From the NCBI GenBank assembly GCA_020719725.1, contig DYPU01000015.1:1-42370 (forward strand): DNA of 42,370 nt. The letters are read 5' to 3'. Of the stretch, positions 9,620-11,325 are shown piece by piece. Below the pieces are notes generated by a model. It was not told the origin of the DNA, made no database searches, and saw nothing but the letters and a program-made list of their open reading frames with translations. The position numbers and the translations under genes are program-made. The stretch's first letter is position 1. Each line of letters begins with the position of its first letter. This stretch comes from Anaerolinea sp. GTDB taxonomy: Bacteria; Chloroflexota; Anaerolineae; Anaerolineales; Villigracilaceae.

Positions 9620-9627
9620 ACGAAAGG

Positions 9628-9670
9628 AACAAAAATCGCCGTTTCTAAAACGAAACGGCGATTTTTGTTC
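9628..9670. terminator. bidirectional terminator between convergent genes
   Basis: near-perfect palindrome GAACAAAAATCGCCGTTTC-taaaac-GAAACGGCGATTTTTGTTC. Confidence 0.9.
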
Positions 9671-9678
9671 CTTTTTTG

Positions 9679-11325
9679 CTATTCTTCGCGGCGCAAGCCC
9701 TGGCGTTGACGGGTTTGATCAATAAAATCGCGTACCAGTTTTTGGGGATGAGGCTGTGAGCCACCCATAATTAAATAACCGGGTGCCCAAAAATCACCCG
9801 ACGGGTTATCGCTCTTAATGCGCGGGAAATCCTTAAAAACACGCTCCGAAGTTTGCTGGCGGATGATTCTCATAATGTAGCCGGGCGCGGTGGCTGGCGG
9901 GACGCTCACCACCCATTGCAAGTATTCGGGTCGGACTGAAATGTGTTCAAGCCGCCAGCCAAAAGCAACGCAGACTTGCGGAACCCAGGCGGAAAGTTGG
10001 TCGGCCAGGTCCCCGGTCAGGTGATGAGTATCGAAGCGCGGAACCATCAGGCAGGCGTAGTTCAGGTTATACATGGCCGGAGAGGCTGGTTCGAGCACAA
10101 TCCGGTGGGCCACTTCAGTAACCGATTGCGGGCGAGTTTCCATGATGGAGAGAGGGTCCGGGCTAACTTTTTGAGCGCGAGTGGCTTCCAGTTCTTCGGC
10201 AGTCAGTTGGCGTTCTTTTTCAGCCTGGGAGCGGTTCAGTCGGGTTTGATCCAGGGCCGGGTTGGCCTGACGGCGCACCGCAGGTGAGCTTTCCCGGCTA
10301 AATTCGGGAGCAAACATGGGATGGGTGGTAACGAGCGGTTCTAAATCGGGCAAGGGGCGCGCCTGGGTACGAACAGAGGTCGATTTCTGTTCCCAGTGCA
10401 ATGGAAGCGAACTGCCTTTGGGGGGCAAGGGCGGCGGAACATCCCCTAAAAGGTCTGAAATGGGAGGCAAGTCTTCCAGTTCTTCATCTTCTGGCAGCAT
10501 TGCTTCTGGCTTTTGGCTGGAAAAAAGCGAAACCTGGCTGGTATGTTCGGGTGAAACTTCGGACAGGGAGCGCACAAGCTGACCAGCCTGGCTGCGGATG
10601 GTACTTAGAGGGGTCTCGGCATCAAAAACCAGCGCCAGCACCATTGAAGCAGTCAGGCGACGGGCGTAGAGCATGTGCTGGGCTTCGGTGCTTTCCAGGT
10701 GAATGAAGCGCAGTAAATCGCTTTGCGATTGGGTATCCCAATATTTTTGGACAGAGCGCGCCAGTTCTTGGGCGGCTTCGCGCGAGAGTTGACCAGCGTA
10801 GGCCCATAGTTCATTTTGACGGGTGATCAGCGCGGCTTGGGCGGAAGATTCGAGCATTAGCCGGGTTAAATGGCGCGCGGCGCGGCTGACATCTTTCAGC
10901 CAATCCAGGTCTTCGTCGGGCAGGGCAGGGTTGGTCGAAACGGCGAAACCGGCAACGGGTGGAGTGTCGCGCAGTGTGAATTGAGCGAGCAGCTTTTGCA
11001 AGTCGGGCAAGGAAACGGGTTTGGTCAGGGTGGCGCGTAAGGGTAAATCCTGTAAACGAGCCGTTTTTTGACCGGCATTGGCAATCAGTATCAGGCTAAC
11101 ATCCGCTTTGATTTGACGCAAGGCCAGCCCAATATCCAGCACGGAGATATCAGCATCTTCCAGGTCAGCATCAAGCAAAACGGGCAGGGGTTGGCTGGTT
11201 TGGCGCACAAACTGAATTGCTTCAGAAAAATCTGAAGTGATGGAAACCTGATGGGAGGGCAATCCCTGAGCGATGAGATTTCCAAAACTGGGTTGTGGAG
11301 ATAGCACTAAAAGGGGATTTGCCAT
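9679..11325 (-). CDS. receiver-like + Roadblock/LC7-like + degenerate Y1 (IS200-type) transposase-domain protein
   Basis: N-term MANPLLVLSPQPSFGNLIAQGL...LLDADLEDADI...LTKPVSLPDLQKLL; middle ALITRQNELWAYAGQLSREAAQELARSV...; C-term YNLNYACLMVPRFDTHHL...GWRLEHISVRPEYLQWVVSVPP...IRQQTSERVFKDFP...FWAPGYLIMGG...LVRDFIDQ. Confidence 0.75.
   Translation of the reverse strand: MANPLLVLSPQPSFGNLIAQGLPSHQVSITSDFSEAIQFVRQTSQPLPVLLDADLEDADISVLDIGLALRQIKADVSLILIANAGQKTARLQDLPLRATLTKPVSLPDLQKLLAQFTLRDTPPVAGFAVSTNPALPDEDLDWLKDVSRAARHLTRLMLESSAQAALITRQNELWAYAGQLSREAAQELARSVQKYWDTQSQSDLLRFIHLESTEAQHMLYARRLTASMVLALVFDAETPLSTIRSQAGQLVRSLSEVSPEHTSQVSLFSSQKPEAMLPEDEELEDLPPISDLLGDVPPPLPPKGSSLPLHWEQKSTSVRTQARPLPDLEPLVTTHPMFAPEFSRESSPAVRRQANPALDQTRLNRSQAEKERQLTAEELEATRAQKVSPDPLSIMETRPQSVTEVAHRIVLEPASPAMYNLNYACLMVPRFDTHHLTGDLADQLSAWVPQVCVAFGWRLEHISVRPEYLQWVVSVPPATAPGYIMRIIRQQTSERVFKDFPRIKSDNPSGDFWAPGYLIMGGSQPHPQKLVRDFIDQTRQRQGLRREE

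Follow-up and report, generated by a model that had tools for sequence, protein, structure and literature searches.

A catalytically degenerate IS200/IS605-type transposase domain conserved in a receiver-Roadblock protein encoded beside polA in Anaerolineae

What does a transposase domain do at the end of a signalling-type protein once its catalytic residues have gone? The question is raised by a gene of Anaerolinea sp., which we analyzed in a stretch of 42,370 nucleotides (contig DYPU01000015.1, hereafter the window). The first-pass annotation had placed an open reading frame at 9679-11325 and had read it as a receiver/Roadblock protein fused to a dead Y1 transposase domain. The frame is real and was correctly delimited, running on the minus strand from an ATG at 11325 to a stop at 9679 and encoding 548 amino acids. 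It comprises a receiver-like domain (residues 1-118; 10972-11325), a Roadblock/MglB-like domain (residues 141-256; 10558-10905), a disordered linker (residues 257-415; 10081-10557) and a catalytically degenerate IS200/IS605-type Y1 (TnpA) domain (residues 416-548; 9682-10080), all on the minus strand.

The identity of the C-terminal domain was supported by profile searches, by a sequence search of the PDB and by the predicted fold. The Pfam profile PF01797 (Y1_Tnp) matched residues 418-535 with an E value of 1e-11 and 45.4 bits against a cut-off of 23, and the NCBIfam profile transpos_IS200 matched at its threshold (1e-14; 54.9 bits, cut-off 55). A phmmer search of the PDB retrieved the TnpA chains 2ec2 (7e-9), 2fyx, 2f4f and 2xm3 over residues 415-543. 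The Y1 part is of low confidence in the full-length model, and a separate AlphaFold model of the Y1 domain (17 sequences, pLDDT 78) is the better evidence. Its strands and helices follow the order seen in TnpA, Foldseek matched it to the IS608, ISDra2 and Sulfolobus TnpA structures at E values of 1e-8 to 1e-5, and all of the first 29 PDB matches were TnpA-type transposases. The near-invariant family motif NPSGDFWAPGY (residues 507-517; 9775-9807) corresponds to the G-x-LW--SY region of TnpA. The IS200/REP TnpA fold that had been proposed from the sequence, with a structural match as the suggested check, is thus borne out.

The catalytic elements have degenerated. At the site of the HUH metal-binding motif the window protein has Y468-L469-Q470 (9916-9924), and the two histidines occurred together in none of 76 distinct homologous Y1 domains, in which the first position is mostly Tyr and the second mostly Gln; a single histidine remains in a few distant family members. 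The earlier reading of a lost HUH motif therefore holds for the family as well as for this protein. Loss of the catalytic tyrosine from the window protein was also read correctly, but its position was one residue off: the nucleophile-equivalent residue is Phe534 (9724-9726), not Asp533. The Y---Q arrangement of tyrosine and downstream glutamine is replaced by F534 and T538. Tyrosine is kept at the Phe534-equivalent site in many homologues (28, as against 47 with Phe); at the class-1 glutamine site, Thr occurs in 50 and Gln in 9. As a control, 18 TnpA-like proteins from the same order grouped apart as active-type; the one further Y1 match of the window genome keeps HAH and a tyrosine.

Both N-terminal domains were recognized as the first-pass annotation had suggested. 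Pfam found Response_reg in 10 of 18 homologues (best 6e-9), and the model of residues 1-118 has a CheY-like fold that matches the PhoB and Spo0F receivers (TMt 0.75-0.83). D52 and Lys102 are kept in the window protein and the acidic pair is lost (S9-P10); over 82 homologues the phospho-Asp is present in 79 and the Lys in 69, and the acidic pair is mostly T/P. The receiver is thus degenerate, and because the acidic pair is lost its phosphorylation appears doubtful. No significant Pfam match to a Roadblock domain was found in the window protein. The model of this region nevertheless has the alpha-beta-beta-alpha-beta-beta-beta-alpha topology of the fold, and Foldseek matched it to MglB of Myxococcus xanthus (6hjm; TMt ~0.6, E ~3e-5) and of T. 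thermophilus (1j3w). The linker (pLDDT <50) is the fastest-evolving part of the protein and contains a short conserved motif, DLPPISDLLGDVPPPLPP (residues 285-302; 10420-10473), for which the family pattern is PI..[IL][IL]..[IV]P.P.P. This strict pattern was matched in 18 of 51 linkers and a looser form in many others.

We then asked how widely the protein is distributed; neighbourhoods and profiles were searched within one phylum, in genomes that are mostly metagenome assemblies. A homologue is present in 86 of 100 relatives at the order level, representing 57 genera, so that the fusion is far from unique to the window. There is typically one full-length copy per genome, with identities of mostly 40-77% within the family and less beyond it. 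A cross-phylum scan, which reached only close relatives, gave matches from Chloroflexota alone. Within the window genus, dN/dS was lowest in the Y1 (~0.02-0.06) and Roadblock (0.03-0.05) domains and higher in the receiver (0.11-0.13) and linker (0.15-0.26), the ratios being rough since synonymous sites are near saturation. The Y1 domain is under strong purifying selection despite its lost HUH motif. When 75 dead Y1 domains were placed in a tree with 22 of the active type (rooted for drawing only), the dead ones formed one clade with 100/100 support, apart from the active-type TnpAs. Fused copies that belong to other families of the class (L114, L125, L130 and L164) fall within this clade. Taken together, the single clade, the vertical distribution and the strong purifying selection point to domestication, as the first-pass annotation had proposed, and to a single old event, in which an IS200/IS605-type TnpA domain was fused behind a receiver-Roadblock protein early in Anaerolineae. 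Nothing marks the gene as a mobile element: it is single-copy and vertically inherited, and a non-exhaustive search for hairpin ends returned only its own unique 23-bp inverted repeat.

Variants of the architecture were also observed. Giant versions of 948-1146 amino acids (L125:4593-8030, L130:4770-7781 and L168:1978-4821) carry an insertion of several hundred residues between receiver and Roadblock; Y1 was detected in those of L125 and L130, not in that of L168. Standalone dead-Y1 copies of 170-200 amino acids (L050-L056) nest within the fused clade and are therefore derived. In L050 (273-5347), L053, L056 and L060 a dead-Y1 gene, Roadblock-fused in L060 and standalone in the other three, heads a cluster with an Mrr-type nuclease (Mrr_N plus Mrr_cat) and a TPR protein; on sufficiently long contigs a 7TM histidine kinase is also present, and in L050 a response regulator comes next. 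The Mrr protein of these clusters matches the PADLOC candidate PDC-S02; PADLOC gave no match to the window protein. Two further standalone copies (L052:4749-5327 and L055:5228-5827) lie beside MCP-like, CheW-like and MotA/MotB-like genes, named from their sequences.

The genomic context of the fusion gene is dominated by polA. Among the 85 order relatives carrying the protein, 72 have the gene directly upstream of polA on the same strand, usually with a TPR gene following, and the linkage recurs in other families of the class; neighbours on the opposite side are not conserved. The linkage has been lost in the whole window genus and a few others; in the window genus polA lies on another contig, and the fusion gene faces radA. 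The window neighbours radA, ABC-F, MBL, MazG-like and GGDEF are mostly not conserved with the fusion gene beyond close relatives, only the MBL gene recurring, in a few relatives. Receiver/Roadblock genes without Y1 stand immediately before polA in other families (L118, L133, L155 and L165), some overlapping it, and likewise in one family of the order (f2; L079, L080 and L082). Because these Y1-less forms also precede polA, the comparison suggests that the linkage to polA is older than the addition of Y1. Some of the gaps between fusion gene and polA are at most 30 nt; among those of at least 60 nt, 28 of 35 contain a terminator-like hairpin, and polA may have its own promoter, separate from the fusion gene. 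In L098-L102 (the window genus and some relatives), polA is preceded within a few bases of its start by a conserved TATGGTAAATTAA, which suggests a leaderless polA transcript; the leaderless promoter signal TANNNT was not enriched overall (17 versus 14.7 in shuffles).

Being encoded next to polA, the protein may have a regulatory or scaffolding role in DNA replication or repair, and the reading that we tentatively prefer is a non-catalytic, Roadblock-dimerized scaffold whose Y1 fold still recognizes DNA or replication structures near Pol I. In this adaptor, the Roadblock and Y1 domains would both dimerize, and the degenerate receiver and the linker motif would bind partners. Like TnpA, the Y1 fold would recognize secondary structures in DNA or fork-like single-stranded DNA of the lagging strand, holding rather than cutting it, and a partner, most plausibly DNA polymerase I, would be placed or regulated at gaps or Okazaki junctions. 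DNA binding by Y1 and a functional link to Pol I are here inferred, and a single-stranded DNA hairpin, the ligand proposed in the first-pass annotation, is a candidate. Yeast two-hybrid assays identified the beta clamp as a binding partner of IS608 TnpA, which also has an affinity for DNA resembling a fork and is directed to the template of the lagging strand (PMC5371812; PMC6006769). These properties make an adaptor at Pol I a natural reading. In a more specific version, a two-component/Roadblock scaffold would recruit or regulate DNA polymerase I at replication gaps, with a nuclease-dead TnpA as the head by which it reads DNA structure; this version seems rather unlikely as it stands.

Several observations weigh against the adaptor. 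The dead Y1 domain does not exceed active-type TnpA in net positive charge (median +2 against +3.5), and in the conserved KGxS helix motif R-Q stands in place of K-G. A beta-clamp motif was considered in the linker, where the window protein has QVSLF, and was rejected, as counts over 51 linkers equalled those in shuffles (2 seen, 2 expected). With terminator-like hairpins in many of the gaps, co-transcription with polA is putative, and the window genus and a few others have separated the gene from polA. The standalone dead-Y1 copies in kinase/Mrr or chemotaxis loci also imply that the fold may be a general protein module.

This last point leads to the main rival, a signalling scaffold that does not bind DNA, in which Y1 would serve as a protein-interaction or dimerization module only, working with an MglA-type small Ras-like GTPase and two-component partners, and the polA adjacency would be incidental or regulatory. 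We regard it as possible, if on balance not likely. It accords with the MglB-like Roadblock and receiver folds, with the standalone copies beside histidine kinase, Mrr-like, TPR or MCP/CheW/MotB-like genes, and with small-GTPase-like matches in all 21 genomes searched, the best in the window genome being weak (E=7e-5). It also has a precedent in the RomR and MglB/MglC proteins of Myxococcus (PMC6785124; PMC9481161). However, no GTPase gene was recognized among the conserved neighbours, and a position next to polA that is shared by 72 of 85 genomes can hardly be called incidental.

An improbable alternative is a gene regulator that controls polA expression, the dead Y1 binding a hairpin in DNA or RNA close to polA or to its own gene, in the manner of a nuclease-dead transposon protein turned transcription factor. 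In its favour, several genera share a sequence-conserved hairpin, CGCAGAG(TATAAT..)CTCTGCG, in the gap from the fusion gene to polA (L048, L085, L089, L023, L026 and L024). The loop often contains TATAAT, a T run comes after the hairpin, and it is mostly the sole or nearly sole copy in its genome. Its stem is more conserved than a terminator requires. A hairpin with a T run nonetheless reads as an intrinsic terminator; it stays upstream of polA in L101 (G006), where the fusion gene has moved away, in the window no copy of it follows the gene, and other genera have unrelated hairpins or none. We therefore rejected it as the ligand. The inverted repeat beside the gene was rejected too as a dispersed ligand: the first-pass annotation had proposed a search for genomic hairpin repeats, but this perfect 23-bp repeat (9623-9674, between the convergent ends of the radA-like and fusion genes) is unique in the genome and is probably a two-way (bidirectional) terminator.

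It is highly improbable that an altered active site still lets Y1 cleave or ligate single-stranded DNA: the nucleophile position is Tyr in 28 of 75 homologues, but the two metal-ligand histidines never occur together, Thr mostly replaces the class-1 Gln, and the nucleophile position of the window protein itself is Phe. Ordinary decay or accident, that is, an IS200 element fallen into a signalling gene or a prediction artefact, is refuted by these data, since Y1 transposases are common and often decay (PMC6006769) but here a homologue persists in 86 of 100 order relatives, in one clade and under strong purifying selection.

The first-pass annotation knew of no described system with this architecture, and our literature search, in which subscription journals were thinly covered, likewise found no description of a dead Y1 fused to receiver and Roadblock domains. 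The fold, the full-length domain alignment and the best Foldseek matches liken the domain to TnpA of IS200/IS605 (IS608, ISDra2; PF01797, class 1 of the TnpA-Y1 superfamily); it differs in its lost HUH and metal-site Gln, its F/Y tyrosine site, its signalling fusion and its chromosomal, vertical inheritance with no IS ends found. Like TnpA-REP/RAYT it is a chromosomal Y1 protein thought to be domesticated, but RAYTs keep HUH and Tyr and sit with dispersed flanking REP hairpins, whereas here both catalytic elements are degenerate and the gene's own inverted repeat, the one repeat compared, is not dispersed; the Foldseek match of the Y1-alone model to the RAYT 4er8 was weak (4e-3). The Myxococcus RomR and MglB/MglC polarity system likewise brings receiver and MglB-type Roadblock modules together, but as separate proteins with no transposase domain and no polA link. 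TldR originates from a nuclease-dead TnpB. Like the dead Y1 in principle, this phage-encoded RNA-guided transcription factor (PMC13418256) is a catalytically dead protein that arose from this transposon family and was retained for regulation; it derives from TnpB, not TnpA, and has no signalling fusion. In the main survey of the TnpA-Y1 superfamily, proteins keep HUH and Tyr, and unusually long fusions were set aside (PMC6006769).

The family is thus old and vertically inherited, and in it the TnpA fold, although it has lost catalysis, ranks with the most conserved regions of a signalling-type protein. The domesticated Y1 transposases that have been described to date retain their catalytic residues, and the dead-Y1 family differs from them in this respect. 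It is the TnpA counterpart of the nuclease-dead TnpB in TldR. Its position next to polA allows the fork-targeting of transposons to be tied, in a testable way, to replication or repair in the host, in a phylum where replication has been little studied. If the Pol I reading is true, a transposon's replication-fork targeting module would have become a core factor of replication or repair throughout a bacterial class.
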